Positions 21,451 through 39,456 of a stretch of DNA of 64,000 bases are shown one piece after another. Numbering within the stretch: position 1 is the stretch's first letter; the number at the start of each line of letters is the position of its first letter. The notes beneath the pieces are model-generated. The model was not told the DNA's origin and did no database searches. It saw only the letters and a program-made list of their open reading frames with translations. The translations under genes were made by a program, and so were the position numbers. Source of the stretch: Buttiauxella agrestis (GTDB taxonomy: Bacteria > Pseudomonadota > Gammaproteobacteria > Enterobacterales > Enterobacteriaceae); NCBI RefSeq assembly GCF_900446255.1, contig NZ_UIGI01000001.1, forward strand, positions 2,444,763 through 2,508,762, read 5' to 3'.

Positions 21451-22656
21451 ATGACCCTACCTAAAATTAAACACGTTCGAGCCTGGTACCTGGGCGGTGC
21501 GACCGCAGAAAAAGGCAGCGGGGGTGCCGATTACCACGATCAGGGCAATCAGCACTGGATTGATGACCATATCGCGACACCAATGAGTAAATACGCCCAG
21601 TATGAGCAATCACGCCAGTCGTTTGGTATCAACGTACTGGGCACCTTAGTGGTGGAAATCGAAGCCGAAAATGGACAGACCGGTTTCGCGGTATCCACGG
21701 CCGGTGAAATGGGATGCTTTATTGTCGAAAAACACCTCAATCGTTTTATAGAAGGCAAATGCGTCAGCGATATCAAACTCATTCACGATCAAATGCTGAA
21801 TGCTTCGATGTATTACTCCGGTTCTGGCGGCCTGGTCATGAATACCATTTCCTGTATCGATCTCGCATTATGGGATCTGTTTGGGAAAGTGGTCGGGCTG
21901 CCCGTTTATAAGCTGTTAGGAGGAGCGGTGCGTGATGAAATTCAGTTTTACGCCACCGGCGCTCGCCCGGATCTCGCCAAAGAGATGGGGTTTATCGGCG
22001 GCAAAATGCCAACGCACTGGGGGCCGCACGATGGCGATGCGGGTATCCGTAAAGATGCCGCTATGGTGGCGCAATATCGTGAAAAATGCGGGCCAGACTT
22101 CTGGTTAATGCTCGATTGCTGGATGAGCCAGGATGTGAATTATGCCACCAAACTTGCCCATGCCTGCGCCCCGTACAACCTGAAGTGGATCGAGGAATGC
22201 CTGCCGCCTCAGCAATACGAAGGTTATCGCGAACTCAAGCGCAATGCGCCTCCAGGTATGATGGTTACTAGCGGTGAACACCACGGCACCTTGCAATCCT
22301 TCCGCACGCTGGCGGAGACGGGCATCGATATTATGCAGCCGGATGTAGGCTGGTGCGGTGGTTTAACCACGCTGGTAGAAATTGCGGCGATTGCTAAATC
22401 TCGCGGGCAGCTCGTTGTGCCGCACGGTTCGTCGGTCTACTCCCATCATGCGGTGATAACTTTTACTAATACGCCTTTTAGCGAATTCCTGATGACCAGT
22501 CCGGATTGCTCAACGATGCGTCCGCAGTTTGACCCGATTTTGCTCAATGAGCCGGTGCCTGTGAACGGACGGATGCACAAATCGGTGCTGGATAAACCTG
22601 GCTTTGGTGTTGAGCTTAACCGGGAATTAAACCTTAAACGTCCTTACAGCCATTAA
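21451..22656 (+). CDS. rhmD: L-rhamnonate dehydratase RhmD
   Basis: Mg-dependent enolase-superfamily dehydratase converting L-rhamnonate to 2-keto-3-deoxy-L-rhamnonate. 401 residues, identical in length and very close in sequence to E. coli YfaW/RhmD. An N-terminal capping domain with the active-site segment [14 protein letters not shown] (~residues 28-41) precedes the barrel with metal ligands in [18 protein letters not shown] and SGEHHGTLQ, and the catalytic His in [22 protein letters not shown] lies before the start. Confidence 0.97.
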
Positions 22657-22743
22657 TCATCCCGTGTCACGTTCAACAGGGCACTAACGCCTTTTATTCG
22701 TGACACTGTCACCTTTATTGGTCTCATTGAGAGGAAGACTGCT

Positions 22744-24039
22744 ATGGATTCCGTTTTAAATCGCGCCGTGAAGAAGAACCGCGCACGCCTGATTCCGTTC
22801 ATGCTGGCGCTGTATATTCTGGCATTCCTTGACCGCTCTAATATCGGTTTTGCGAAAGAGACCTATCAGATAGATACCGGACTGAGCAATGAAGCGTATG
22901 CGCTTGGCGCGGGGATCTTCTTTGTGGTGTACGCCTTCCTGGGCGTTCCGGCGAATTTGCTGATGCGAAAATGGGGGGCTCGCCGCTGGATTGGTGGCAC
23001 AACTTTGTTATGGGGAATGCTCTCGGCTGCCATGGGGTACGCCGATACCGAAGCGAAGTTTCTCATTGTTCGGACACTGCTGGGTGCGGCGGAGGCTGGG
23101 TTTTTCCCCGGCATGATCTATCTCACCTCACAATGGTTCCCGCAGCAAAATCGCGCTGCAATTATGGGGCTGTTTTACATGGGCGCGCCTCTGGCGTTAA
23201 CCCTTGGCTCACCACTTTCCGGTGCGTTACTGGAAATGCATGGCTTTATGGGCAGCCCCGGCTGGTACTGGATGTTTCTGATTGAGGGGCTGCTGGCCGT
23301 GGGCGCTGGTGTGTTCACCTTTTTCTATCTCGACGATACCCCACAAAAAGCCCGTTTTCTGACGGAAGAAGAGAAGCGAGTGTTGCTGGCTCAACTGGCG
23401 CTTGAAGACGAGAAGAAAACCAACTCGCGGTTTATGGACGCCATCAGCAACAGCCGGGTATGGCAGCTCGCCATCATCTACATGACCATTCAGATTGCGG
23501 TATACGGGCTGATTTTCTTCTTACCCACCCAGGTCGCAGAACTGATGGGCACCAAAGTCGGGTTTACCGCCTCCCTGGTCACCGCCATTCCCTGGATAGC
23601 CGCTCTGTTTGGTACCTGGTACATCCCGCGTTACTCCGACAGAACCGGCGATCGTAAAAATGTGGCGGCTCTGACGCTGCTGGCCGCGGGCGTGGGTATT
23701 GGGGTTTCTGGCTTAGTCAGCCCTGTTTTCGCCATTGTTGCGCTGTGTGTGGCGGCCATTGGTTTTATTGCCGTACAACCGGTTTTCTGGACGATGCCCA
23801 CGCAGCTTCTTTCAGGGACGGCGCTGGCCGCAGGCATTGGTTTTGTGAATCTGTTCGGCGCGGTTGGCGGTTTTCTGGCACCGCTTATTCGAGTCAAAGC
23901 GGAAACGGCTTTTAACAGCAATGCCGCAGGATTGCTGGCGCTGGCTGGCATCGCCATTGTCGGTGCGTTGATTATCTTCACTCTTAGCGTGGCAAAACAG
24001 GCACCGCTAACACGAATTAATAAAAAGGAATCGGTATGA
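22744..24039 (+). CDS. rhmT: MFS transporter, probable L-rhamnonate importer RhmT
   Basis: 431 residues with 12 predicted membrane helices, of the anion:cation symporter (GudP/ExuT-like) branch. Helix 1 contains [19 protein letters not shown], the branch signature, and the loop 2-3 motif [12 protein letters not shown] is present. Lies between rhmD and rhmA with a 4-bp overlap (ATGA) to the latter, so it is presumably the rhamnonate uptake protein, as proposed for E. coli YfaV. Confidence 0.92.
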
Positions 24040-24839
24040 ATTCGCTGTTATCTAATCCGTTTAAGCAGGGCATTTTGAACAACGAGGTACAAATTGGGCT
24101 GTGGTTGAGTAGCACCTCATCCTACCTGGCTGAAATTGCGGCGACATCAGGTTATGACTGGCTTTTGATAGACGGTGAACATGCTCCCAATACCGTGCAG
24201 GATCTCTATCATCAGTTGCAGGCCATTGCCGCTTACCGCAGCCAGCCGGTGATCCGTCCCGTTGAAGGACAGCGGAGCATTATTAAGCAGATGTTGGATA
24301 TTGGCGCCCGCACTCTGCTTATTCCGATGGTGGATACGCCTGAGCAGGCGCGCGAGATTGTCAGCGCCACACGTTACCCACCGCTTGGAACCCGTGGCGT
24401 TGGCGCTAGTGTGGCTCGCGCCGCCCGCTGGGGGCGGGTAGAAAACTATATGGCGCAGGCGAACGATGAATTATGCGTGTTAATTCAGGCCGAAAGCAAA
24501 ACGGCACTGGATAACCTGGACGCTTTACTGGAAGTCGATGGTATCGACGGGATTTTTATCGGTCCGGCAGATTTGTCCGCATCATTGGGTTATCCGGATA
24601 ACGCCAACCACCCGGAAGTGCAGCGCATCATTGAGCAGAGCATTCGCCGCATTCGTCATGCAGGGAAGGCGGCGGGATTCCTGGCGGTTAACCCGGAAAT
24701 GGCGAAAAAATGCATCGAGTGGGGCGCTAATTTCGTCGCGGTTGGCGTGGATACCATGCTCTATACACAAGCGCTGGATGCCCGGCTGGCGTTATTCAGC
24801 CAGACGCCAGTGAGCAACGGTAATAAAAACAGCTACTAA
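24036..24839 (+). CDS. rhmA: 2-Keto-3-deoxy-L-rhamnonate aldolase RhmA
   Basis: Metal-dependent class II HpcH/HpaI aldolase that splits 2-keto-3-deoxy-L-rhamnonate into pyruvate and L-lactaldehyde. 267 residues, as E. coli YfaU. Catalytic His in [10 protein letters not shown] (~residue 49), metal ligands in IQAESKTAL (~153) and [11 protein letters not shown] (~179). Last gene of rhmRDTA; the enzymes after lactaldehyde are not in the window. Confidence 0.96.
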
Positions 24840-24891: not shown

Positions 24892-25929
24892 CTACAATTC
24901 CGCCTCATCCAGGCGCATCAACCTGTCCAGGCGCTGATGGTAACAACGCAGCGTGGCGTCAATCGCCTCGGGCGGCATAAACGAATCACGATATACCGCT
25001 TCCACAATGCGACTCTCTTTTTGCAAATCACTTAATAACTTGACGATCAGTTTGTCGGTCAATCCTATCGCCAGGCCGAGTTCCCGGAAATCCATACCCA
25101 GATATTCGCCGTATGCGGTTTTAAAACCGGGCGCTAACTCGCGTTCGCCTTCCTCGCAACTCAGTAACGGCAGCGCCATAAATCCTGAGCTAAAAATGGC
25201 CGGATAGGGCGCAACCGAGACAAAATCATAAACCGGCGATAGCGTCGGCTCGCCCATACGCGGGTGTATCAGCCCGAAATTGCGCAGGTGCATATCGTTA
25301 TTGCCCAGCAGATACGCGTAAGCAATGCGCCGGAACAGGTCGATTTTAAAGGCGAGGTTGCTATTCACATGCTGCGTCAGGAACTCGGCTAATTGTTGAT
25401 AGCTGACGTTCTGTTTGCCGTCGCTGCCGGTTTTTCCGTACTTTTCGCCGACATTCATCGCCGCATCCAGTTGTTCCTGGTGGATTGCCGCCCCGGTTTG
25501 AATGTCTCTGTCAAAGCGGCGGATCACAAAGGCCAACTCTGGCGTGGCTTGGTTGTCTTCACACGCAAATCTCACCAGCCCATGAGGCGGCACGTCAAAT
25601 CCCAGCCGCGCCATAAGCGTCATGGTGGCGTGTTCGTTTTCCGCCAGATGGGGGAATTCTGCCGGGGACGGTTTTAGGATGTATTCGCCCTGGTGTTCAA
25701 CCACGGCAAATTCACCGTCGCGCACCACCATTTGCAATTTAGGCTGATAGCCGGAGATGCTCATCCCGCGCTGGGCTTTGGGCAATTCATGAATAAATTC
25801 ATTGCGCGTAAAACTTAGCTGCGGGTTCACTTTGCCAGAGCCAGTCAGGTGCTTCAGCCCTTTGGTTGAATAGCCGGACTCTCGCTCTTTGGCCTGCACC
25901 AGCGGCGTCAAAAGAATAGGGCAACGCAT
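24892..25929 (-). CDS. hipT: HipT toxin kinase of a HipBST toxin-antitoxin system
   Basis: A 345-residue HipA-like Ser/Thr kinase without the N-terminal subdomain of HipA. The Gly-rich loop QRGMSISGYQPKL places Ser at positions 57 and 59, precisely the two autophosphorylated serines described for E. coli O127 HipT. Catalytic segments LLGNNDMHLRNFGL (~residues 220-233) and SPVYDFVSVAPY (~245) are intact. HipT of O127 phosphorylates tryptophanyl-tRNA synthetase TrpS and stops growth; the small partner HipS, not HipB, neutralises it. Here hipT is the last gene of hipB-hipS-hipT with a 2-bp gap after hipS. All active-site elements appear functional. Confidence 0.92.
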   Translation of the reverse strand: MRCPILLTPLVQAKERESGYSTKGLKHLTGSGKVNPQLSFTRNEFIHELPKAQRGMSISGYQPKLQMVVRDGEFAVVEHQGEYILKPSPAEFPHLAENEHATMTLMARLGFDVPPHGLVRFACEDNQATPELAFVIRRFDRDIQTGAAIHQEQLDAAMNVGEKYGKTGSDGKQNVSYQQLAEFLTQHVNSNLAFKIDLFRRIAYAYLLGNNDMHLRNFGLIHPRMGEPTLSPVYDFVSVAPYPAIFSSGFMALPLLSCEEGERELAPGFKTAYGEYLGMDFRELGLAIGLTDKLIVKLLSDLQKESRIVEAVYRDSFMPPEAIDATLRCYHQRLDRLMRLDEAEL

Positions 25930-25931
25930 CG

Positions 25932-26246
25932 TTAATCCTCTTGCATGCTGACCAGTTGCACCGCACCAATCAGGTTTTTACCGTTATCGATAAGCATCCC
26001 GAGAAGGTCATGCTCGTCGCGCTGCTGTAATTGGCTGTAGCGCATTTTCAGCCAGCCTTCCGGTGCCAGCGAGGCAAAAAAGGGCGGCAGCGTCGGGCTT
26101 TGAAAATGACCCACACGCACCGGTAAACTGAGCGACAGCGGCGGGCCGACGTAATCTGCGCGATAGCTAAATGCAAAACCGTTGTCGTCCTGGCGCAGCT
26201 CACCCACCGGTTCACCGTATAACCAGACCTCTACACGGCGGCGCAT
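25932..26246 (-). CDS. hipS: HipS antitoxin (HipA N-subdomain-like)
   Basis: A 104-residue protein equal to the N-terminal subdomain 1 that is fused in HipA but separate in HipBST systems: RVEVWLYGEPVGELRQDD, SLSLPVR and the conserved PPFFASLAPEGWLKMRYSQL, ending at GAVQLVSMQED. In the O127 system this piece is the antitoxin; a conserved Trp (here in PEGWLKM) inserts into HipT. It overlaps hipB by 16 bp and lies 2 bp before hipT, so the three are made as a set. Confidence 0.9.
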   Translation of the reverse strand: MRRRVEVWLYGEPVGELRQDDNGFAFSYRADYVGPPLSLSLPVRVGHFQSPTLPPFFASLAPEGWLKMRYSQLQQRDEHDLLGMLIDNGKNLIGAVQLVSMQED

Positions 26247-26554
26247 AATTTCACCCCCAGCGCCTCGGCAACGCGTAATACCGTGCCAAATTTGACCTGT
26301 TCCGGATCTTTAAACAGGCGTTTGAGCGTGGATGCCGACACGCCAGTTTGCAGCTCAAGTGTTGCCAGGTCGATGTCGAGCTCTTTGCGGCGCTGGTTGA
26401 GTTGCGCCCCGAGTTGGGCTGATTCGCTAATGACGTGTTCGCTTACGGCCAGGTCTGATTCCTGCGCCCGCAGAATCACCGCTTTTTTAACGTCATTCAA
26501 TAATTCGCCCATCGCATGCAGTTTGTCGGCAAGCGTAGTGGTGTCGTAGTTCAT
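26231..26554 (-). CDS. hipB: HipB HTH component of HipBST
   Basis: 107 residues from the ATG at 26554, chosen because AAAGGGGTC precedes it; an upstream ATG adds seven residues and puts that site inside the gene. An N-terminal helical region (~1-45) precedes a Xre-type helix-turn-helix (~50-100; LATLELQTGVSASTLKRLFKDP, then LRVAEALGVKLCA). HipB binds the operon promoter and the HipST complex. Candidate operators lie upstream at 26607-26624 and 26769-26787. Confidence 0.88.
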   Translation of the reverse strand: MNYDTTTLADKLHAMGELLNDVKKAVILRAQESDLAVSEHVISESAQLGAQLNQRRKELDIDLATLELQTGVSASTLKRLFKDPEQVKFGTVLRVAEALGVKLCAAV

Positions 26555-26606
26555 TTCTGACCCCTTTCTTTTCATTTAAGCAGGGAAATGGTTGTCTGTG
26601 AGCCTT

Positions 26607-26787: not shown

Positions 26788-26867
26788 CCAAATGTAAATT
26801 AATTGTTTCACTCAGGTAGCGCGAATCCCTATTAATGAAGGCATGTTAATCAACACGAGTTTGTTGC

Positions 26868-27890
26868 ATGTCTTATCGAATCAGTTTGTTGGATAAAATC
26901 CCGGTCGCTCAGGATGACACGCCTGCTGAGGCGCTGAAGCACACGTTGCATCTGGCACAACAGGCCGAAGCCTGGGGCTATCACCGCTTCTGGATTGCCG
27001 AGCACCATAACACCGCCCGGCTGGCAAGCCCTTCACCGGAGCTGCTTATTGCGTGGATCATCGGGCAAACAAACCGTATTCGTGTCGGTTCCGGCGGGGT
27101 GATGTTGCAGCACTACAGCCCATATAAAGTGGCCGAAAACTTCAACTTACTGGCGAACCTGGCACCGGGGCGCATTGATCTCGGTGTTGGTAAAGCGCCT
27201 GGCGGTTTACCGCTTTCGACCAAAGCGTTGCAGCGCGGCGTGCAGGATAAATCCTCATTTGCCGATCAACTCGCCCAGCTCGATAACTGGCTTTCTTTAC
27301 CTGCCGCACAAGATGACGAAGAAACCCTGCGCGCCACGCCGGTTCCCGCTCGTAGCGCCGATCGATTCTTGTTAGGTGCCAGTCTTGAAAGTGCGACGCT
27401 TGCCGCAAACCTGAACTGGAATTTTGTCTACGCCGCCCATCTGAATGGGGACAAAGCCCTGATGCGCGAAGTATTGAGTTCATGGCGCAGCCGCAGTTCG
27501 CTCGACACGATAGTGGCGGTGCAGGTGATTGTCGCCGCTGACGCTGAAAAAGCTGACCAATTAGCCAGTCTTGTCGAGATCTGGAGTGTTGAACTGGAAA
27601 ACAACCAGCGCGTCAGTGTGGCCAGTGAAGCGCAGGCCCACGCGTTTGCTCGCCAGGCGGGGAGCGCCATCAAAAAAATCGAACGCCGCGAACCTTCACT
27701 GCTAAAAGGCACTGCGGAGACGGTTCACGCCGGGCTTGCGGCATTGAGCAAAGAGTTCGCTATCGACGAATTTATTATTGATACCCCGATTGCCGACCCG
27801 GTCGCTCGTCTTCAATCGCTGCGTTTGTTAGCTGGCGTTCAGCCTGCCATATCGCACCTCGATTTTGCTGCCCAGCATGATGCCTGGTAA
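26868..27890 (+). CDS. Luciferase-like (LLM) flavin-dependent monooxygenase, YtmO-like
   Basis: A 340-residue single-domain bacterial luciferase-like protein. It opens SYRISLLDKIPVAQDDTPAE and has FWIAEHHNTARLASPSPELL (~residues 38-60), the family's flavin-site segment, then RIRVGSGGVMLQHYSPYKVAE and GRIDLGVGKAPGG. FMNH2-dependent oxygenation of an organosulfur or related compound is likely. It is the first gene of an eight-gene run on the plus strand with a deacylase, a second monooxygenase, an acetyltransferase and an ABC importer; a YtmO-type protein accompanies the same set in the Bacillus ytm operon. Shine-Dalgarno is weak. Confidence 0.8.
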   Translation: MSYRISLLDKIPVAQDDTPAEALKHTLHLAQQAEAWGYHRFWIAEHHNTARLASPSPELLIAWIIGQTNRIRVGSGGVMLQHYSPYKVAENFNLLANLAPGRIDLGVGKAPGGLPLSTKALQRGVQDKSSFADQLAQLDNWLSLPAAQDDEETLRATPVPARSADRFLLGASLESATLAANLNWNFVYAAHLNGDKALMREVLSSWRSRSSLDTIVAVQVIVAADAEKADQLASLVEIWSVELENNQRVSVASEAQAHAFARQAGSAIKKIERREPSLLKGTAETVHAGLAALSKEFAIDEFIIDTPIADPVARLQSLRLLAGVQPAISHLDFAAQHDAW

Positions 27891-27900
27891 GGGGACGCAG

Positions 27901-29022
27901 ATGACATTTGAACAGCAGCTTATCGACTGGCGGCGTGAACTCCACCAGAACCCGGAACTGTCGGGGGAAGAGGTGGCAACTACCGCGCGGATACGCCACT
28001 GGCTGGAATCTGCTGGCATACGGTTATTGCCTTACTCACTGGCGACCGGCGTGGTGGCAGAAATCGGGCAGGGCGAGAAGATGATCGCGCTGCGTGCGGA
28101 TATTGACGCGCTGCCGATTCAGGAAACCAGCGGCGTTGCGTTCAGTTCACACAATGAAGGGGTGATGCACGCCTGCGGGCACGACGTTCACAGTAGCGTG
28201 ATCCTCGGTGCCGCATTGTTATTAAAAGCGCGGGAATCGCAACTGGCCGGGCGCGTGCGCTTGTTATTCCAACCTGCGGAAGAAAACTTTACCGGCGCGA
28301 AAGCGTTGATTAAAGCCGGGGCGCTGGAAAACGTGACCGCGATTTTCGGCATGCACAACGAGCCTGGTTTACCGGTAGGCACCTTTGCCACCCGAGGCGG
28401 CGCGTTTTATGCCAACGTTGACCGTTTTGTTTTGCGGGTGCAGGGGAAAGGTGCGCACGCTGCCCGTCCACATCAGGGAAATGACGCCATTGTGCTCGCC
28501 AGCCAGTTGGTGATTGCCCTGCAAACCATTGCCAGCCGCAATATCGACACGCTGGATTCAGTGGTCGTCAGCGTCACACGCATTCAGGGAGGGAATACCT
28601 GGAATGTGTTGCCTGAACACGTCGAACTCGAAGGAACCGTGCGTACCCATAACGCCGATGTTCAACGTCACGTTGAGAAACGAATCAGTGAGATTGCAGC
28701 CGGTTTAGCCAGTGCGTTTGGCGCACACATAGAAGTGGAATGGTTTAACGGGCCAATAACATTGCTCAACGATGAACAATGGGCGGCTTTTGCGATGCAG
28801 GTCGCACAAGATTTTGGATATCAGACCCAAACCTCTGAACTGCACATGGGCGGCGAGGACTTCGCGGTTTATCTGCAAAACATTCCCGGCGCATTTGTCA
28901 GCATTGGCAGCGCCAGCGCATACGGTTTACACCATTCGGCATTTAATCCGGATGAAGCATTAATAGAAGATGCGGCGAGATATTTCGCCACACTTGCTGA
29001 ACAGGCGCTACTGGTCAATTAA
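27901..29022 (+). CDS. M20 family amidohydrolase/deacetylase, YxeP/SndA-like
   Basis: 373 residues from the ATG at 27901 (AAGGGG before it, 10 bp after the previous stop). Metal-binding motifs of the M20D family: [33 protein letters not shown] and the late [11 protein letters not shown]; the dimerisation insert contains [16 protein letters not shown]. Such enzymes remove acyl groups from N-acyl amino acids. By analogy with YxeP and SndA of Bacillus it may deacetylate an N-acetyl-cysteine product released by the neighbouring monooxygenase. Confidence 0.85.
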
Positions 29023-29039
29023 CTATTTGGAGAACCACC

Positions 29040-30350
29040 ATGTCAAACAACAGACAATTGCGCCTGGGCACCATATTACATGGCGCGTCCGGGAATATGT
29101 CGGCCTGGCGTCACCCGGCAGCTATTGCGGATGCCAGTATTAATTTCGAGTTTGTCAAAGAGACGGCATTAAAAGCCGAAGCTGGAAAGCTGGACTTTTT
29201 ATTTGTGGCGGATGGTTTATATATTAACGAAAAATCTATTCCGCATTTTCTGAATAGATTCGAGCCGCTCACGGTGCTGTCGGCATTAGCCAGCGTGACC
29301 ACACATTTAGGGCTGGTCGGTACGCTGTCCACCTCTTACAGCGAGCCTTTTACGGTCGCACGCCAGTTCGCCAGCCTGGACCATTTAAGCAAAGGCCGCG
29401 CGGGCTGGAACGTGGTGACGTCACCGCTGGAAGGTTCGGCGAAGAACTTCTCACGTGAGAAACACCCGGAACACGCGCTGCGTTATCGCATTGCGGATGA
29501 ATATCTCGATGTGGTGAAAGGGCTGTGGGATTCCTGGGAAGAAGATGCGTTTATTCGTGACAAAGAAAGCGGGCAGTTTTTTGATGCGAATAAATTACAC
29601 ACCTTAAATCACCACGGCGATTTCTTTAAAGTGGCAGGGCCGCTGAATATTTCTCGCACCCCACAAGGTCGCCCAATTGTATTTCAGGCGGGCGCTTCTG
29701 ATGATGGTAAAAAATTAGCCGCACGCCATGCGGATGCTATTTTCACCCATCATGAAACCCTTGAAGAAGCGCAACATTTTTATCATGACGTGAAAGGCCA
29801 ACTGGCCAGTCACGGTCGCTCGCCTGAAGATCTGCATATCTTCCAGGGTGTGAGCGTGATTGTCGGTAAAGATGCCGCCGACGTTGAAAACCAATATCAA
29901 ACCACCGCCGCGCTGGTTTCGATTAACGATGCGCTGAATTACCTCGGTCGCTATTTTGAACATCACGATTTCAGCCAGTATCCGCTGGATGAAGCGTTCC
30001 CGGATATCGGGGACCTGGGGCAGAACAGTTTCCGTAGCACCACGGATGAAATCAAACGTAATGCCCGCGAGCGCAATCTGACATTACGCCAGGTGGCGCT
30101 GGAAGCGGCATCGCCTCGCCCGCGTTTTTCTGGCACCGCGCAACAGGTTGCAGACGGATTACAGCAGTGGTTCGAAAGCCACGCCGCAGACGGTTTTATC
30201 ATTCAGGGCGGTACGCCGGACACCTTCCCACGCTTTGTGGATGAAGTGGTTCCGGTTCTGCAAGCCCGGGGGTTATTCCGCACCGAATATCCAGGGACCA
30301 CGCTGCGCGAAAGCCTCGGGCTGGCGAGTCCGGTTAATCAATATTTGTAA
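29040..30350 (+). CDS. NtaA/SnaA/DszA-family FMN-dependent monooxygenase, YxeK/SnaA-like
   Basis: A 436-residue two-component flavin monooxygenase. The opening [18 protein letters not shown], then FLFVADGLY, the [20 protein letters not shown] segment, [14 protein letters not shown] and [18 protein letters not shown] are diagnostic of the NtaA/DmoA group. In Bacillus, YxeK/SnaA oxidise N-acetylated S-substituted cysteines so that the S-substituent is lost. TTGGAGAACC precedes the start. A flavin reductase is not in the cluster, so one must be supplied in trans. Confidence 0.87.
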
Positions 30351-30395
30351 AAGCGTCATCCGACAAAAAAATCAAAATAAGAAAGAGAACCTGTT

Positions 30396-31331
30396 ATGAA
30401 CAAAACATCGCTAATTCTGACTATCGCTCTGGCACTGTCATCGGCACAAACCTTCGCACAGGAGGTCACGATCAACGGCACTGGCGTCAGCCTGGAAGCC
30501 AATAAAACGCCTGTTAATACCGCCGTGAATCCGGCTGCGGTAGCACAACTGCCTAAAGACTATCGCTTTGCGGTGCCGGGGAAATTTACCGTGGCGGTTG
30601 CCGCACTCAACTCACCGCCGCTGACGGTGTTTGCCGAAGACAACAAAACGCTGCTGGGCAGTGAAGTGGATATTGCCCGCCTGGTGGCAGACAGCTTAGG
30701 GCTGGAGCTTAACGTGGTGCCAACCTCCTGGGAGGACTGGCCGCTGGGCGTGACATCAGGGAAATACGATGCGGCAATCAGCAATATTACCGTCACCAAA
30801 GATCGCAAACAGAAATTTGATTTTGCCACCTACCGTAAAGACTCGCTCGGGTTCTATGTGAAAGCCAATAGCCCGATTAAGAAGATTGAGAAAGCAGAAG
30901 ATATTGCCGGGCTGCGCATTATCGTCGGCTCAGGCACTAACCAGGAATCTATTTTGCTGGCGTGGAACGAAGAGAACCTGAAAAAAGGGCTTAAACCTTT
31001 CACGCCGGTTTACACCAAAGATGATGCCGCACAAACCCTCGCGTTGCAGTCAGGTCGCGCCGATGCCTTCTTTGGCCCGAACGTGACCGGTGCCTGGAAA
31101 GCGGCGTTAACCCAGAAAACACAATTAGTCGGCGTGGTGGATGGCGGCTGGCCGAAAGCGGCGCATATCGCCGTCACGCTCAAGAAAGGCAGTGGCCTGG
31201 TTGATCCGGTACAAACCGCACTTAACGGCGTCATCAAGAATGGCGATTACAACAAAGTGCTGAACCGCTGGGGAGAAGGCGTCGAGCAAATCCCGGCATC
31301 TGAAATCAACCCGGCAGGCCTTGGCGATTAA
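30396..31331 (+). CDS. ABC transporter amino-acid-type substrate-binding protein (first copy)
   Basis: 311 residues, signal peptide ending near SAQTFAQE, so periplasmic. Two-lobe SBP family 3 protein: FTVAVAALNSPPLTVFAEDN, GSEVDIARLVADSLGLEL, TSWEDWPLGVTSGKYDAAISNIT, RIIVGSGTNQE. It has a close relative three genes downstream (33581) sharing most of these blocks, so the cluster carries two binding proteins for one permease, as in the Bacillus TcyJ/TcyK pair. The ligand is probably an S-modified cysteine or related amino acid. Confidence 0.85.
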   Translation: MNKTSLILTIALALSSAQTFAQEVTINGTGVSLEANKTPVNTAVNPAAVAQLPKDYRFAVPGKFTVAVAALNSPPLTVFAEDNKTLLGSEVDIARLVADSLGLELNVVPTSWEDWPLGVTSGKYDAAISNITVTKDRKQKFDFATYRKDSLGFYVKANSPIKKIEKAEDIAGLRIIVGSGTNQESILLAWNEENLKKGLKPFTPVYTKDDAAQTLALQSGRADAFFGPNVTGAWKAALTQKTQLVGVVDGGWPKAAHIAVTLKKGSGLVDPVQTALNGVIKNGDYNKVLNRWGEGVEQIPASEINPAGLGD

Positions 31332-31341
31332 GGAGACGAAC

Positions 31342-31848
31342 ATGAGTGAACAATTTCGTGATGTTTCCCCGGAAGCATCAGAACTCCAGCCTATTATCGC
31401 CGGGCTGTTTGGCGAGTATGAAGCGCGTTATGGGGACTACTTTTCCCGTGATGCGGAAGTGGAATTAACCGAATGGTATCTGGCGCCTCAAGGGTTGTTC
31501 ATCGTGCTTGAACGTGACGGCGAGATTATCGCTACCGGCGCGTATAAGCCATTCGATAAATATACCGCCGAGATAAAACGTATCTGGACGCATCCCGAAT
31601 TACGCCAGCAAGGGCTTGCCCAGCGCATGATGCGGGAGCTGGAAAACAGGGCGCAGCTTGCCGGTTACAGCCATCTTTATCTCACCACCGGCTTTCGTCA
31701 GCCGGAAGCGGTAAAGCTGTATCTGAGCCTGGATTACCAACCGCAGTTTGATATCTACCGCGACCGCGAAGAATACAGCGTGGCTCCTTTCGACGGGCGC
31801 TTACGGTTTACCAAACAGCTCACCGTTGCGCAGCTGAAAACGGCCTGA
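31342..31848 (+). CDS. GNAT N-acetyltransferase, YxeL/SnaB-like
   Basis: 168 residues from the ATG at 31342, placed after AAGGAGACGAAC (an upstream in-frame start would overlap the preceding gene). The acetyl-CoA loop is in RIWTHPELRQQGLAQRMMRELE (~residues 76-97), followed by YLTTGFRQPEAVKLYLSLDY. In the proposed pathway it would N-acetylate the imported S-substituted cysteine before oxidation. Its place between an SBP gene and the permease gene ties it to the transport and degradation cluster. Confidence 0.82.
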   Translation: MSEQFRDVSPEASELQPIIAGLFGEYEARYGDYFSRDAEVELTEWYLAPQGLFIVLERDGEIIATGAYKPFDKYTAEIKRIWTHPELRQQGLAQRMMRELENRAQLAGYSHLYLTTGFRQPEAVKLYLSLDYQPQFDIYRDREEYSVAPFDGRLRFTKQLTVAQLKTA

Positions 31849-31857
31849 GGAATCATC

Positions 31858-32808
31858 ATGACTACACCTTCAAATACACCTTCAAATACCCCATCAACTA
31901 TCAAAGTGGTTCCGGCGCGTTATCCGTGGCGCACTTTCGGGGCGATTGTCGCCCTGTTTGTGCTGGCGATTGTGGTTCAGTCGGTAGCGTTTAACCCGCG
32001 CTGGGAGTGGAGCGTGTTTGCCCGCTGGTTCTTTGATCCGGTGATTCTGGAAGGGCTGGCGCAAACATTGCTGCTGACATTGATTGGCACCGCGCTGAGT
32101 GTCGTATTTGGGGGATTGCTGGCGCTGGCCAGACTCTCATCGTCATGGCTGTTGAATAGTCTGGCGTGGGGTTATATCTGGCTGTTTCGCTCACTGCCGC
32201 TGATTGTGGTGCTGATCATCCTCTATAACTTCTCCTATTTGTACGACACGCTTTCGATTGGTATTCCTTTCACCCAAATCAGTTGGGGAAGCTATCAGAC
32301 CATTAACGTGCTCGGCCAGTTTTCAACGGCGGTTGTCGGGCTGACGTTAGTGCAAAGCGCGTATACGGCGGAGATTATTCGCGGCGGGTTTCTCGGCGTC
32401 GATCACGGGCAATATGAAGCGGCTGCGGCGTTAGGGCTTCCGGCATGGCGACGTACGGTGCGCATTATTCTGCCGCAGGCGTTGCGGACCATTTTGCCTT
32501 CCGGCTTCAATGAAATTATCAGCCTCGCGAAAGGGACGGCGATGGTTTATGTGCTGGCGATGCCGGAGTTGTTCTACACCATTCAGATGATTTACAACCG
32601 CACCCAGGAAGTGATCCCGCTGCTGATGGTTGGCGCGGTCTGGTATCTGGTTATCACAAGCGTACTGTCGTTGATTCAGCATCTGGTCGAACGCTGGCTG
32701 GCTCGCAGTGAACGCCGCTCGGCCATCAATCAACAAAGTCCGGCCCGCCTGGCACCACGCCAGCCCGTACTGCAAACTCAGGAGGCCGCCCATGCTCCAC
32801 TCCCATAA
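31858..32808 (+). CDS. Amino-acid-type ABC transporter permease
   Basis: 316 residues with about five to six membrane helices. The His/Glu/Gln-type permease domain contains LEGLAQTLLLTLIGTALSVV, the EAA loop EAAAALGLPAWRRTVRIILPQAL (~residues 187-210) and YVLAMPELFYTIQMIYNR. The N-terminus is made of short NTPS repeats (12-bp tandem DNA repeat). Probably works as a homodimer, as no second permease gene is present. GAGGAATC precedes the start. Confidence 0.9.
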   Translation: MTTPSNTPSNTPSTIKVVPARYPWRTFGAIVALFVLAIVVQSVAFNPRWEWSVFARWFFDPVILEGLAQTLLLTLIGTALSVVFGGLLALARLSSSWLLNSLAWGYIWLFRSLPLIVVLIILYNFSYLYDTLSIGIPFTQISWGSYQTINVLGQFSTAVVGLTLVQSAYTAEIIRGGFLGVDHGQYEAAAALGLPAWRRTVRIILPQALRTILPSGFNEIISLAKGTAMVYVLAMPELFYTIQMIYNRTQEVIPLLMVGAVWYLVITSVLSLIQHLVERWLARSERRSAINQQSPARLAPRQPVLQTQEAAHAPLP

Positions 32809-33571
32809 TCCAACCGGTCATATTTCGATTACTGGCGTCAGTAAATATTTTGGCCGCCATAAAGCGCTGGATAATATTTCCCTCGAGCTGGAACCGGGTT
32901 CAGTCACCGTGATCCTCGGGCCGTCAGGTTCCGGTAAATCCACCTTATTGCGGGCCATTAACCACCTGGAACGTGTTGATGAAGGGTTTATCCAGATTGA
33001 CGGCGATTACATAGGCTACCGTCAGTCCGGGGACAAACTGTATGAGCTGAAAGAAAAAGAGATCCTGCGTCAGCGCGTGAATGTCGGTTACGTATTCCAG
33101 AACTTTAATTTGTTCCCGCATCTCACGGTGCTGGAAAACCTGATTGAAGCGCCGATTGCCCATAAGCAACTCAGTCGCAAAGCGGCGGTTGAACAGGCGT
33201 ATCAACTGCTGGATGTGGTGGGTCTGCGTAATAAAGCGGACGCATGGTCACGGCATCTTTCCGGTGGGCAGCAACAACGTATCGCCATTGCCCGCGCTCT
33301 GGCGCTGCGCCCGCGAGTGATGTTGTTTGATGAGCCCACCTCAGCGCTTGACCCTGAACTGGTGGGCGAAGTGTTGGACGTCATCAAAAAGCTCGCGCGT
33401 TCCGGTACTACGCTGGTGGTCGTGACCCATGAAATCGGTTTTGCCCGGGAAGTGGCAGATAACGTGGTGTTTATGGTGGATGGCAAAATTGTTGAGCAAG
33501 GTAGCAGCGACGAAGTGCTTAACCATCCGCAACATTCGCGAACGCGTCAGTTTTTATCGAAAGTTCTTTAA
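32792..33571 (+). CDS. Amino-acid-type ABC transporter ATP-binding protein
   Basis: 259 residues from the ATG at 32792, decided by AGGAGG seven bases before; it overlaps the permease end by 17 bp. Walker A GPSGSGKST, Q-loop YVFQNFNLFPH, signature LSGGQQQRIAIARAL, Walker B VMLFDEPTSALDPE and switch His in VVVTHEIGFAREVA are complete, typical of GlnQ/YxeO-type subunits. It powers import through the preceding permease. Confidence 0.93.
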   Translation: MLHSHNPTGHISITGVSKYFGRHKALDNISLELEPGSVTVILGPSGSGKSTLLRAINHLERVDEGFIQIDGDYIGYRQSGDKLYELKEKEILRQRVNVGYVFQNFNLFPHLTVLENLIEAPIAHKQLSRKAAVEQAYQLLDVVGLRNKADAWSRHLSGGQQQRIAIARALALRPRVMLFDEPTSALDPELVGEVLDVIKKLARSGTTLVVVTHEIGFAREVADNVVFMVDGKIVEQGSSDEVLNHPQHSRTRQFLSKVL

Positions 33572-33580
33572 GGAGCAGGC

Positions 33581-34477
33581 ATGAAATTTGTCCCACTGGC
33601 GCTGATTGTTTTGAGTACCGCGAGCTTTGCTCAGGGAAGCCTGGATCTGAAGGCGAATGAACAGCCGATACATACGGCTAAAGACCCGATTGCTATCGGT
33701 AAAATTCCGCAGAACTATCAATTTGTGGAACCGGGAACGCTGACGGTGGCGATTTCCGCGCTCAATTCGCCGCCGCTGGCGATGCTGGCGAGTGATAACC
33801 GCACCAGGATCGGCAGCGATCCGGATATCGCCCGTTTGCTGGCCGATAGCCTCGGGCTGAAACTCAAACTGGTGCCGACCGCCTGGGAAGACTGGCCGCT
33901 GGGGATTACGTCCGGGCGATATGATGTGGCACTGGTGAATATCGCCGTTACAGAGCAGCGTAAAACGAAGTTTGATTTTGCGACCTATCGCGTAGATTCC
34001 CTGGCGTTTTCGGTGAAATCAGACAGTCCGATTCAAAAAATTGCAGGCCCGGTAGATGTTGCCGGGTTACGGATTATTTTGGGTTCCGGCACCAATCAGG
34101 AAAAGATCCTGTTGGGTTGGAATGAGCAAAATGAACGCGAAGGGCGTAAACCCGCCCAGCCGATTTACCTGACGGACGACGCTTCCGGGAATCTGTATAT
34201 TCAGGCTGGCCGGGCAGATGCGACGTTTGGCCCGCAAAGTGTGGCCGCCTATAAAGCGGCGTTAACCGGGAAAACGCGCGTTGTGGGGCTTGGGCCTAAA
34301 AAAGCGTATGTCGCCACTACCACCAAAAAAGGTAACGGGCTGGTTTATGCCTTACAAGCCGCGCTTGATGGTGCGGTGAAACGGGGTGAATACCAGCAAG
34401 TTCTCGACCGTTGGGGAGAAAAGGGCGAAGAAGTCGCGGCGTCTGAGGTGAATCCACCCGGCATTACTTATCCTTGA
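33581..34477 (+). CDS. ABC transporter amino-acid-type substrate-binding protein (second copy)
   Basis: 298 residues, signal peptide up to about STASFAQ. Shares with the protein at 30396 the blocks LTVAISALNSPPLAML, GSDPDIARLLADSLGLKL, TAWEDWPLGITSGRYDVALVNI and GSGTNQEKILLGWNEQN, so the two are paralogs probably from a duplication. Divergence is greatest in the distal lobe, which suggests related but not identical ligands. TTAAGGAGCAGGC precedes the start, 9 bp after the ATPase gene. Last gene of the cluster; its stop directly adjoins that of the convergent TetR gene. Confidence 0.85.
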   Translation: MKFVPLALIVLSTASFAQGSLDLKANEQPIHTAKDPIAIGKIPQNYQFVEPGTLTVAISALNSPPLAMLASDNRTRIGSDPDIARLLADSLGLKLKLVPTAWEDWPLGITSGRYDVALVNIAVTEQRKTKFDFATYRVDSLAFSVKSDSPIQKIAGPVDVAGLRIILGSGTNQEKILLGWNEQNEREGRKPAQPIYLTDDASGNLYIQAGRADATFGPQSVAAYKAALTGKTRVVGLGPKKAYVATTTKKGNGLVYALQAALDGAVKRGEYQQVLDRWGEKGEEVAASEVNPPGITYP

Positions 34478-35065
34478 TTAACGCTTAACAACGAGCAAAA
34501 CCTGCTCAATAAAGCCATAAATATCTTCCAGCGCCTGTTCTCTCGCCAGCGGGGCGCTGTCGATGATCAGTTGATCCGAGTACCCGTTCAGCAACGCTCC
34601 AAGCTGGCGGGTCACTCGCCAGACATCGGTCTGGCGAAATACGCCGCTTTCAATGCCCGCGCGAATGATATTCGCCAGCAACGCATCCCACTTTTCAGTC
34701 AGCGTTAGCGCAAAGTCGGCATACACTTTGTTATGCACCGCGAGACGCCACAACGAACCATACAGCTCCCAAACCGCATCGGCGCGGTCAGGCAAATAAT
34801 CTTCAATAAAAATCTTCAAACCCTGCTCAGGCGGCAGTGCGCAAGACTTTTGGCTAAACGTTTCCAGTTCCGCATACATGAAGCGCGAAAACGCTTCGAG
34901 ACACAGCGTCTGCCAGTCGGGGAAATAGTGATAAATATGGCTGCGCGCGATGCCGACTTGCTCGGTTAATTCACGCGTGGTGACTTTTTCCACCCCTTTT
35001 TCAGTGAACAACACGATCGCGGCATCGAGAATATTCTCTTTCAGAACAGATGCTTTTTCTTTCAT
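34478..35065 (-). CDS. TetR/AcrR family transcriptional regulator
   Basis: 195 residues starting MKEKASVLKENILDAAIVLF, with GGGGGT before this ATG; a start at 35116 would place codons over the operator. N-terminal TetR helix-turn-helix (TTRELTEQVGIARSHIYHYFPDW, ~residues 25-47) and a helical ligand domain (~60-190). Two inverted repeats with TTGAGC/GCTCAA arms lie directly upstream, between it and the divergent membrane protein gene, so it most likely represses itself and that gene. The ligand is unknown. Confidence 0.88.
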   Translation of the reverse strand: MKEKASVLKENILDAAIVLFTEKGVEKVTTRELTEQVGIARSHIYHYFPDWQTLCLEAFSRFMYAELETFSQKSCALPPEQGLKIFIEDYLPDRADAVWELYGSLWRLAVHNKVYADFALTLTEKWDALLANIIRAGIESGVFRQTDVWRVTRQLGALLNGYSDQLIIDSAPLAREQALEDIYGFIEQVLLVVKR

Positions 35066-35085
35066 CACAGTACCCCCGGTTGACT

Positions 35086-35135
35086 TTGAGCAAGTGCTCA
35101 AATAGACTCTTTTCATTCTTTGAGCAACCGCTCAA
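35086..35135. promoter_or_regulatory. Twin TetR operators TTGAGCA-N2-YGCTCAA
   Basis: TTGAGCA-AG-TGCTCAA at 35086-35101 (perfect arms) and TTGAGCA-AC-CGCTCAA at 35120-35135 (one mismatch), centres 34 bp apart, in the 96-bp gap between two divergent genes. A strong architecture for a TetR repressor. Confidence 0.75.
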
Positions 35136-35161
35136 GAATAACAACTAAAGAAATTAAAGTC

Positions 35162-36052
35162 ATGGAAACTTCACAAGCCGCGCAGCTTCAGCCTTCACGC
35201 GGTGCATTAAATACCATCAAAAAACTCGCAAAACTCCACAGTAAAAAATTAGTCATTACTCTGATGCTGGTGGTCGCCGAAAACATCATTTACCTGCTTT
35301 ACCCGCTGATGGCCGGTTTTGCGATTAACGCCATTATCAAAGGCCAGCCACTTCATGCATTGCTGTATGCGCTGGTGGTCTTTGTGATGTGGGCGATTGG
35401 CGCGGCACGTCGCAGCATGGACACCCGCACCTTTGCGAGAATCTACGCAGAACTGGCTGTGCCGGTGATTGTGGCGCAACGTAAAGATGCGCATAGTCAT
35501 TCGACTATCGCTGCACGAGTGACGTTGTCACGTGAATTCGTCAATTTCTTCGAAACACACCTGCCGCTGCTGATTACTTCCGTGGCATCAATAATCGGTG
35601 CCGTGGTGATGCTGCTGACGATAGAGTTCTGGGCCGGGGTGGCGTGTCTGGCGGTGCTGATTTTCTTCTCGCTGTTCCTGCCGAGCTATACGCGCAAAAA
35701 CGAAATGCTGTATGAAAAGCTCAATGACAGGCTGGAAAAAGAGGTCGGGTTCGTCGGCACAGCCAGTGAAAATACGCTAAACAAGCATTACGACTTTTTA
35801 GCTCGCGTGCGTATCCGCCTGTCTGACCGTGAAGCATTCGGTTATTTATCGATTGGTATTGCCGCCGCGTTCCTGTTTGCCACGACCATCTTCCTGATGA
35901 CCGCGAAAGGCGTCGGGAACGCCGGGCATATTTATTCCGTCATGACGTACATGTGGATGTTCGCCATGAGTCTTGATGACGGCCCATCTCTGCTGGAAAA
36001 GTATTCCCAGCTTAAAGAGATAGGCAAACGGGTAAATACCGGACTGGTGTAA
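35162..36052 (+). CDS. ABC-transporter six-transmembrane-domain protein without ATPase domain
   Basis: 296 residues with the six-helix arrangement of an ABC exporter membrane domain (LVITLMLVVAENIIYLLYPLMAG, then ARRSMDTRTFARIYAELAVPV and the paired C-terminal helices) but no nucleotide-binding domain: there are no Walker motifs and the chain ends soon after the sixth helix. I use the ATG at 35162; a TTG at 35120 would begin inside the operator. Probably controlled by the divergent TetR regulator. Whether it pairs with a separate ATPase or has another role is unknown. Confidence 0.78.
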   Translation: METSQAAQLQPSRGALNTIKKLAKLHSKKLVITLMLVVAENIIYLLYPLMAGFAINAIIKGQPLHALLYALVVFVMWAIGAARRSMDTRTFARIYAELAVPVIVAQRKDAHSHSTIAARVTLSREFVNFFETHLPLLITSVASIIGAVVMLLTIEFWAGVACLAVLIFFSLFLPSYTRKNEMLYEKLNDRLEKEVGFVGTASENTLNKHYDFLARVRIRLSDREAFGYLSIGIAAAFLFATTIFLMTAKGVGNAGHIYSVMTYMWMFAMSLDDGPSLLEKYSQLKEIGKRVNTGLV

Positions 36053-37414: not shown

Positions 37415-38173
37415 TTAGTGCTTGCCGAGATACTCTTTTTCCAGCCGGGCAACCGTGCCATCCTGGGTCATTTTAGTCAGTGCGTCATTGATGAGCTTCA
37501 ACGTCTGTTCATCACCTTTGCGCACGCCGATCGCACTATTGGCTGAGAGCATTGGGTCTTTCACCGGCTCGCCCGAAAACGCGTACTCTTTGCCAATCGG
37601 CTGGTCGAGAAACGCCGATTGCCCGGAGGTGGCAACGACAAAGGTCGCATCCAGTCGGCCATTGGCTAAATCGCCGTAAATCGACTGTTGATCCGGGTAC
37701 TCCGTCACGTTGGCACCTTGCGAGCGCCATTTCGCATCAGCATATTTCGCCTGCACAGAACCCTGTAACACCCCGACGTTTTTCCCGCTTAGTGACGCTG
37801 AATCAGGTTTCAACGGCGCATTTTTGGCAGAAATTAAACGGCTGTCGTCTTCATACAATGTCTGGCTGAAGTCGATGACTTTCTGGCGCTGCGCATTCGG
37901 GGCCATTGAGGAAATGACTGCATCAAATTTTTTGGCATTCAGGCCAGGAATTAAGCCATCAAAACCGGACTCGACCCACTGGCAGGTCACGCCCGCGGTT
38001 TTGCAGATTTCATTGCCAATCGCAATATCCAGCCCAACCAAACTGCCGTCAGGTTTTTTTGACTCATAAGGTGGATAGGTGGGGTCAGTGCCAAAACGCA
38101 GTGTCTGAGCCCCAACGGCCTGGCAGACCGTCAATGCCAGCAATCCACAAACCCCTGCAACGTATTTGTTCAT
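37415..38173 (-). CDS. Periplasmic amino-acid-binding protein (ArgT/HisJ-like), orphan
   Basis: 252 residues: signal peptide ending VGAQ, then TLRFGTDPTYPPYESKKPDG, the classical opening of cationic amino-acid binding proteins, LVGLDIAIGNEICK, SGFDGLIPGLNAKKFDAVIS and the hinge segment ANSAIGVRKGDEQTL. It is preceded by an M20 amidohydrolase gene on the same strand (31-bp gap), but no permease or ATPase gene is adjacent, so it probably docks on a transporter encoded elsewhere. With the amidohydrolase it may serve N-acyl or dipeptide-like amino acid sources. Confidence 0.85.
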   Translation of the reverse strand: MNKYVAGVCGLLALTVCQAVGAQTLRFGTDPTYPPYESKKPDGSLVGLDIAIGNEICKTAGVTCQWVESGFDGLIPGLNAKKFDAVISSMAPNAQRQKVIDFSQTLYEDDSRLISAKNAPLKPDSASLSGKNVGVLQGSVQAKYADAKWRSQGANVTEYPDQQSIYGDLANGRLDATFVVATSGQSAFLDQPIGKEYAFSGEPVKDPMLSANSAIGVRKGDEQTLKLINDALTKMTQDGTVARLEKEYLGKH

Positions 38174-38204
38174 CTTAAGCTCCGGTGGTAGTCAGTTTTG
38201 GCTG

Positions 38205-39365
38205 TCATGCTGAGAGACGGTCAAGGGCGAGGGTGATGAAATAGCGCACACCCAGCGGCAGGACATCGTCGTTAAAATCATAATGTGGGTGATGGCAAAA
38301 AACGCCGCCCTGGCCGAGCAGCACGTAAGCACCAGGCCTGCGCAGCAGAAACTCTGAGAAATCTTCTGAGCCGTTCATCGGCGGGAAACTGCGTAAGACG
38401 TTCTCTTCGCCAAACACCTTTTCGGCACTTTGGGCTGCGGCCTCGGCTTGAGCAGGATGATTCACGGTTGCCGGGGAACCGTTGGCAAAACGCACGGCAA
38501 TCTCACACTCACAGGTTTTTGCCACTCCTTCGCAAATCGCCTCAATACGACGTTTTGCCTGAGTTCGTACCGCCTCGTTAAAGGTGCGCAAGGTGCCTGC
38601 AAGCGAGGCATGAGCCGGAATAACGTTCGGCGTGCTGCCAGCATGAATGCTGCCGATACTGAGCACCGACATTTCTGAAGGGGAGATCGTGCGGCTGACT
38701 ACCGTTTGTAGCGCGCAGACCAGTTGGGCTGCGGCAATGACCGGGTCGCGCGTGAGTTCTGGCGCGGAGCCATGTCCGCCCACGCCATCAATGGTGATCA
38801 GCACATCATCGCATGAGGCCAGCATCGCGCCGTCCAGCACGCCAAAGGTGCCGGGCGCAAAATGGGGAGCATTATGCAGGCCGTAAATTTCATCCCAGTC
38901 GAACTGGGCTTCAACACCCGCTTCCAGCATCGCCAGCGCGCCACCGCCGTTTTCCTCGGCGGGCTGGAACACAAACACCACTTTCCCGGCAAAATCGCGG
39001 TTTTGACTAAACCATTGCGCCGCGCCTAACAGCATGGCGGTGTGTCCGTCATGGCCGCAACCGTGAAAAGCTCCGGCACGAGTCGAGCGGTATTCCGGGT
39101 TGCCTTCTTCTTCCATCGGCAACGCATCCATATCCGCACGCAGGGCGATAGTGCGTCCGTGGCCGCGTTCGCCTTCCACCACGCCGACAACGCCTGTGCC
39201 GCCAATATTGCGCCAATGAGTCACGCCCCATTGTTGCAGGCAGTTGACGACACGTTCACTGGTGCGGGTTTCTTCAAAAGCAATTTCGGGATGGGCATGC
39301 AAATCACGGCGTAATGCTACTAACTCAGCAATATTTACCGTCAAATCAAGGTTATTGTTCACCAC
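38205..39365 (-). CDS. M20 family amidohydrolase (aminoacylase/hippurate hydrolase-like)
   Basis: 386 residues from a GTG start (a second GTG follows immediately and either may serve). Metal motifs RADMDALPMEE, FHGCGHDGHTA, FQPAEENGGGA, and MNGSEDFSEFLL; dimerisation insert with GVGGHGSAPELTRDPV. Hydrolyses N-acyl amino acids or similar amides. Same operon as the orphan binding protein and divergent from a LysR gene, its likely regulator. Confidence 0.86.
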   Translation of the reverse strand: MVNNNLDLTVNIAELVALRRDLHAHPEIAFEETRTSERVVNCLQQWGVTHWRNIGGTGVVGVVEGERGHGRTIALRADMDALPMEEEGNPEYRSTRAGAFHGCGHDGHTAMLLGAAQWFSQNRDFAGKVVFVFQPAEENGGGALAMLEAGVEAQFDWDEIYGLHNAPHFAPGTFGVLDGAMLASCDDVLITIDGVGGHGSAPELTRDPVIAAAQLVCALQTVVSRTISPSEMSVLSIGSIHAGSTPNVIPAHASLAGTLRTFNEAVRTQAKRRIEAICEGVAKTCECEIAVRFANGSPATVNHPAQAEAAAQSAEKVFGEENVLRSFPPMNGSEDFSEFLLRRPGAYVLLGQGGVFCHHPHYDFNDDVLPLGVRYFITLALDRLSA

Positions 39366-39456
39366 TTATAAAGCCCTCTATTATACTGAGTTCGCAAAAC
39401 GACCGGCTTTATGATGCTAGAAGAGACTGAAATCATTGGTCAATTTCCAGTTTCTT

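Follow-up and report, generated by a model that had tools for sequence, protein, structure and literature searches.

A probable operon for cysteine recovery from S-alkylated cysteines in Buttiauxella agrestis and its relation to Bacillus salvage systems

Salvage of cysteine from S-alkylcysteine has been worked out in Bacillus, where, in the account given by the accessible part of one study, the substrate is acetylated, CmoO converts the product to a sulfoxide and CmoJ then cleaves the C–S bond (PMC10863075). The same text describes the CmoJ step as a flavin-dependent Pummerer-type reaction that yields a sulfenic acid and an aldehyde, after which reduction and deacetylation give cysteine (PMC10863075). 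A second Bacillus route, that of the yxe genes, employs one monooxygenase or a lyase according to the available portion of its description (PMC9706529). The accessible sections of a third study identify ScmP (YxeP), YhaA and YtnL as N-acetylcysteine deacetylases and tie the ytn and yha clusters to S-methylcysteine, S-benzylcysteine and similar compounds (PMC12757645). Here we analyse a 64,000-nucleotide stretch of Buttiauxella agrestis (assembly GCF_900446255.1, contig NZ_UIGI01000001.1, positions 2,444,763 to 2,508,762 of the forward strand), referred to below as the window, in which eight genes at 26868–34477 form a cluster related to these systems. With a probability of about 0.8, we regard the eight genes as one operon that recovers cysteine, and hence sulfur, from S-alkylated cysteine.

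All eight open reading frames (ORFs) are intact, lie on the + strand and follow one another at distances of 10, 17, 45, 10, 9, −17 and 9 bp, the negative value being the overlap of the permease and ATPase genes; the coordinates, strand and close spacing given by the initial annotation are borne out, as are the families it named, which were assigned here from NCBIfam and Pfam profile matches. The first gene (26868–27890; TIGR03558, 336.5 bits) encodes a CmoO-like monooxygenase dependent on flavin mononucleotide (FMN), of the MsnO8 type of luciferase-like monooxygenases (LLM), for which S-oxidation of N-acetyl-S-alkylcysteine is proposed. It is followed by an M20 N-acetylcysteine deacetylase of the YxeP/ScmP and YtnL type (27901–29022; TIGR01891, 378.4 bits) and by a CmoJ-like (YtnJ) FMN-dependent monooxygenase of the NtaA/DmoA family (29040–30350; TIGR03860, 552.7 bits), a candidate for oxidative C–S cleavage of the sulfoxide. 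Periplasmic substrate-binding protein (SBP) 1 (30396–31331; PF00497) precedes a GNAT-family N-acetyltransferase (31342–31848; PF00583, 64.8 bits) that would N-acetylate S-alkylcysteine. An ATP-binding cassette (ABC) permease follows (31858–32808; PF00528); its top NCBIfam match, a cystine permease model, reaches 134.8 bits where the cut-off is 300. Next comes an ABC ATPase of the polar amino-acid type (32792–33571; PF00005), whose top model, L-cystine TcyN, scores 303 bits and falls short of the equivalog cut-off (406). We place the ATPase start at the ATG at 32792, which AGGAGG precedes, and not at the mechanically called GTG (32708). The last gene encodes SBP 2 (33581–34477; PF00497), a paralogue of SBP 1 with 56% identity over 300 aa. 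Such a layout is operon-like, and the genes are presumably co-transcribed.

The two monooxygenases link the cluster most directly to Bacillus. The reference used was the genome of Bacillus inaquosorum, with locus L006 and, for yxe, the stretch L068 (labels beginning with L and G denote our loci and genomes). The names ytmO, ytmI, ytnI, ytnL, tcyJKLMN, yxeK, yxeL and yxeM are our assignments from the established layouts of these operons, and YtnJ and YxeP were named from solved chains; we take CmoJ to be YtnJ and CmoO to be YtmO. The closest solved relative of the 29040 product is YtnJ (E 2.6e-167), and it shows 56% identity with the YtnJ copy as against 51% with the YxeK copy. In a 54-row tree it falls with YtnJ copies in a 34-row clade (support 100/100) that excludes the YxeK copy; clade and identity together make it an orthologue of CmoJ and not of YxeK. 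The 26868 product and the Bacillus YtmO copy are reciprocal best hits at 40% identity and share a 27-row clade (support 98/99) of a 35-row tree, outside which fall four other Bacillus paralogues and the second LLM enzyme of G001, the nearest genome compared; 26868 is thus a CmoO orthologue. Both trees are midpoint-rooted for drawing only, a few of their rows repeat one gene, and the 35-row tree holds 33 different sequences.

Because the pair groups with CmoO and CmoJ, the two enzymes most likely act in succession, sulfoxidation being followed by oxidative C–S cleavage, and two monooxygenases alone therefore do not suggest a wide substrate range. The expectation that they point to a wider range than that of yxe probably does not hold. 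It is very unlikely that 26868 and 29040 work in parallel on different substrates and so widen the range of the system: the presence of two SBPs, of CmoJ-clade genes elsewhere that lack an adjoining CmoO, and of a third LLM enzyme in three of four rhizobial clusters compared below (all but L070) would suit such an arrangement, but the accessible part of the Bacillus study describes CmoO and CmoJ as sequential (PMC10863075), and the window pair groups with exactly these two.

The NtaA family name could also point away from sulfur, to breakdown of N-acyl amino acids or of aminopolycarboxylates such as nitrilotriacetate (NTA) and ethylenediaminetetraacetate (EDTA), and M20 enzymes accept many N-acyl amino acids. 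Against this, solved chains named as nitrilotriacetate or EDTA monooxygenases score below YtnJ with the 29040 product (3sdo 494 bits, 5dqp 198 bits, YtnJ 560 bits), and relatives are accompanied by ssuE, msuE or cystathionine beta-lyase, so that we hold a non-sulfur role to be highly improbable.

The association of the eight genes is conserved. Among 247 Enterobacterales genomes sampled evenly from a larger group, an NtaA-type gene matching 29040 (E <= 1e-100) occurs in 13, from which 16 loci were taken. All eight genes are collinear in nine of the 13 genomes (L046–L054) and present in another order in two (L055, L056). L057 retains seven genes, with no M20 match within the stretch examined; in G219 the genes are split over L058 and L060, with no second SBP within the stretches examined. 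The CmoJ locus contains a CmoO match in 13/13 genomes (14/16 loci) and a GNAT of the window type in 13/13. Conservation together across these 13 NtaA-positive genomes indicates a grouping beyond chance. Identical gene order recurs on two Pantoea agglomerans plasmids (L029, and L075 by annotation) and in a Klebsiella pneumoniae record (L076, CP125156.1), in which the first gene is a shorter ORF. That 5.37-Mb record is filed as a plasmid and carries pqqU and ansP; it is probably a mislabelled chromosome, since these genes are chromosome-like. The annotated stretch of the Pantoea piersonii copy has no M20 gene. Across the phylum, an NtaA-type match at E <= 1e-130 was found in 26 of 398 genomes, a set that overlaps the Enterobacterales sample, and 5,426 E. 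coli genomes gave no match either by megablast with 8,001 bases or by blastn with the NtaA-type gene. Among the matches listed in the open-licence literature, judged by title or abstract opening, no enterobacterial version was found; the accessible part of one report concerns a Klebsiella LLM enzyme put to a different use (PMC11354265).

The deacetylase is the third orthologous element. The closest solved relative of the 27901 product is YxeP (1ysj, E 1.3e-106), and its best Bacillus matches are YxeP at 365 bits and YtnL at 362 bits, the next scoring 248, 114 bits lower. YxeP in turn finds the 27901 copy as its best match in G001, which makes the two reciprocal best hits, and the motifs HACGHD, PAEE, HN and the C-terminal HH align with the YxeP and YtnL copies. 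The enzyme thus belongs to the YxeP/YtnL group of N-acetylcysteine deacetylases and is equally of the YxeP type found in the yxe/scm pathway. Its near-equal scores with YxeP and YtnL, the 51% identity of 29040 to the YxeK copy and the possession of one permease, as in yxe, are what salvage of S-(2-succino)cysteine would lead one to expect, with 29040 acting as YxeK does in one step on the N-acetylated compound. We consider that quite unlikely: the YxeK copy stands outside the 34-row clade that holds 29040 and YtnJ, the acetyltransferase is not YxeL, and the 16-kb yxe stretch L068 contains no CmoO match, whereas a CmoO match lies beside CmoJ in all 13 NtaA-positive Enterobacterales genomes. The initial annotation had presented the cluster as the counterpart of both Bacillus operons; the likeness to ytm and the Cmo enzymes stands, since 29040 groups with YtnJ and 26868 with YtmO, and that to yxe does not, YxeK being excluded.

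The acetyltransferase departs from both Bacillus types. The 31342 product carries the acetyl-CoA-type motif RQQGLA. It matches ytmI at E 0.04 only, a different Bacillus GNAT scoring better (8e-4); the yxeL locus is absent from its four Bacillus matches (E up to 1). YxeL and GNATs of the window type give no mutual match at 1e-6; YxeL does match YtmI (44%), and YtmI also matches the GNATs of L058, L059 and L061, not the window type. The window enzyme is thus neither a YtmI-type N-acetyltransferase nor a YxeL orthologue. Its similarity to the GNAT of a Psychrobacillus CmoO/CmoJ cluster (L010) is weak (27%, E 5e-6). Relatives with 46–50% identity sit in rhizobial clusters of the CmoO/CmoJ type, and a Streptomyces clavuligerus relative adjoins ssuE, a glutathione S-transferase (GST)-type gene and three LLM enzymes, with no M20 or importer gene there. 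Of five GNAT loci inspected among the best 25 of 306 matching records, four adjoin LLM monooxygenases of the 26868/29040 kind; the fifth, a 33% match, does not. At L058, L059 and L061, enterobacterial NtaA-type genes have a GNAT of the YtmI type in their vicinity. From the distinct type of 31342, its rhizobial and Streptomyces settings and these YtmI-type neighbours, it appears that a CmoO–CmoJ core has stayed constant and that the acetyltransferase and the importer were swapped around it. The succession of import, N-acetylation, oxidation and deacetylation proposed at the outset is supported in outline, with the correction that its acetyltransferase is no orthologue of YxeL or YtmI.

The importer also has a composition of its own. 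The ATPase is 48% identical to the TcyN copy and the single permease 29–30% identical to either Bacillus permease, and the only match between the two SBP pairs is that of SBP 1 to a single Bacillus SBP (24%); the set differs from TcyJKLMN, which comprises two SBPs, two permeases and an ATPase. SBP 1 retains an Arg at a position that we take to be the alpha-carboxylate site. Absence of the usual alpha-ammonium Asp was considered as a mark of an N-acylated ligand and dropped, the TcyJ, TcyK and YxeM copies being the same. In 12 of the 13 actinobacterial loci compared (L016–L028; Brachybacterium and an Actinomycetales metagenome-assembled genome), a distant NtaA-type gene is preceded by genes for relatives of this SBP family.

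The nature of the imported compound bears on a further alternative, in which plants or animal hosts supply cysteine conjugates that are already N-acetylated (mercapturates), uptake of these is the main task of the cluster, and the GNAT is kept for free conjugates. Both monooxygenases and the deacetylase would work after acetylation, GST relatives occur near five loci (L048, L049, L050, L052, L076), and the SBPs lack the alpha-ammonium Asp. However, that residue does not distinguish free from N-acetylated ligands, being absent from the TcyJ, TcyK and YxeM copies too, and retention of the window-type GNAT in 13/13 genomes argues for free-amino substrates; the alternative seems to us unlikely. 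A broader idea is likewise doubtful: that the system is a general means of dismantling cysteine S-conjugates and mercapturates, by which plant- and host-associated enterobacteria would undo host glutathione detoxification and regain cysteine while the foreign group leaves as an aldehyde. If true, this would concern an acetyltransferase and a binding-protein family that have not yet been assigned to sulfur salvage.

Under the preferred reading as a cysteine-salvage operon, the two SBPs would hand the substrate to the single ABC importer (31858, 32792), and the GNAT (31342) would acetylate its amino group. The CmoO-like enzyme (26868) would convert the thioether to the sulfoxide, and the CmoJ-like enzyme (29040), with O2 and reduced FMN, would cleave the C–S bond to give an aldehyde and N-acetylcysteine sulfenic acid. 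The latter would be reduced by cell thiols, and the M20 enzyme (27901) would release cysteine from N-acetylcysteine. The side chain is presumably an alkyl group, and expression may respond to sulfur supply. Reduced FMN would come from reductases encoded elsewhere; a flavin reductase gene (PF01613) lies inside L055 and L056, an FMN reductase gene (PF03358) adjoins L057, and G001 has seven PF03358 and two PF01613 matches.

A conserved 20-bp element, AAATGTAAATTAATTGTTTC, lies at 26790–26809 on the + strand, 58 bp 5′ of the first start codon. It was sought in seven of the eight-gene genomes, picked because the alignment had already shown it there, and is exact in five, with one mismatch in G199 and two in G081; the K. 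pneumoniae locus L076 also has two mismatches, and L055–L057 fell outside the comparison. A regulon search of the seven genomes gave nine off-cluster matches, all with three mismatches, against ten for the reversed control, leaving aside a relic in G199. There (L052, 11500–13600) the element is duplicated together with the first codons of the first gene, and three small ORFs of 157, 118 and 161 aa lie between the copies. The second, near-exact element was ruled out as a mark of another target gene, as it belongs to this duplicated promoter and 5′ fragment. The conserved element is likely to be a promoter-proximal operator or activator site that goes with the cassette over some of its distribution.

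Several observations weigh against the salvage reading. The window cluster contains no gene for a YtnI-like glutaredoxin, a flavin reductase or a sulfur regulator, and the remark in the initial annotation that the latter two are missing from it is thereby confirmed. No characterised orthologue of the 31342 acetyltransferase was found, and both SBPs lack the usual alpha-ammonium Asp, as do the TcyJ, TcyK and YxeM copies. CmoO orthology rests at about 40% identity, with the next Bacillus paralogue 28 bits behind (220 versus 192), and several long branches were flagged by the tree tool. Membership of the CmoJ clade is no guarantee of the pathway, because no CmoO match accompanies the members at L009, L012, L059, L071 and L073 within the stretches examined. 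By alignment, the 20-bp element is not seen at L053, L054, L029 and L075, which share the gene order, and scanning for promoters and terminators yielded no signal stronger than in shuffled sequence, no consensus promoter being evident.

Among 17 loci compared, L046 and L047, which come from the nearest genome and a congener, are the only ones in which the genes flanking the cluster in the window recur beside it; in L050 the major facilitator superfamily (MFS) gene of the window finds a 41% match. Downstream, at 34478–36052, a TetR regulator gene convergent with the operon is joined by an ABC transmembrane-region gene (PF13748), and within those 17 loci L046 and L047 alone have these two next to the operon. 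Upstream and divergent from the operon, on the − strand at 24892–26575, lie a helix-turn-helix gene (26231–26575) and genes for an N-terminal (25932–26246; PF13657) and a C-terminal HipA domain (24892–25929; PF07804), a three-gene arrangement that resembles the HipBST toxin–antitoxin system. Beyond it, at 21451–24839, an MR_MLE dehydratase-type gene, an MFS carrier gene and an HpcH/HpaI aldolase gene stand in a row that looks like a sugar-acid pathway, which we take to be of the rhamnonate type. At 37415–40422, a second M20 gene (38205–39365; 37% to the operon M20), a family-3 binding protein gene (37415–38173) and a divergent LysR regulator gene (39436–40422) possibly form another N-acyl amino acid uptake unit.

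The preferred reading would extend a pathway known biochemically from Bacillus to enteric bacteria, Klebsiella pneumoniae and Pantoea among them, in the form of a compact cassette, and it offers an interpretation for genes whose annotation goes no further than LLM oxidoreductase, amidohydrolase or GNAT. It also raises the question of which S-alkylcysteines are used and whether cysteine conjugates of hosts or plants are exploited. Among known systems, the rhizobial plasmid clusters (L070 and L072 by BLASTP, L116 and L117 by annotation and GNAT match) share CmoO, CmoJ, M20, the window-type GNAT and two SBPs; they differ in a permease–ATPase fusion, in DsbA (4/4), in the extra LLM enzyme already mentioned (3/4), in msuE in L072 and in cystathionine beta-lyase in L116. 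The Bacillus yxe/scm system for S-(2-succino)cysteine resembles the window cluster in its NtaA-type monooxygenase, GNAT, SBP, single permease, ATPase and M20 deacetylase, whereas its YxeK copy lies outside the CmoJ clade, its stretch has no CmoO match, and its YxeL-type GNAT and YxeM-type SBP are unlike those of the window. With Bacillus ytm/ytn the window cluster shares orthologous CmoO, CmoJ and M20 deacetylase, and both group these with an N-acetyltransferase and an ABC importer of the polar amino-acid type. It differs in gene order, in a non-orthologous GNAT, in having a single permease and SBPs of low similarity where Bacillus has TcyJKLM, and in lacking the L006 genes that we presume to be glutaredoxin-like, RibR-like and YtnM-like. 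On these comparisons, the Buttiauxella operon is most likely a variant of acetylate–cleave–deacetylate cysteine salvage with an acetyltransferase and importer of its own.

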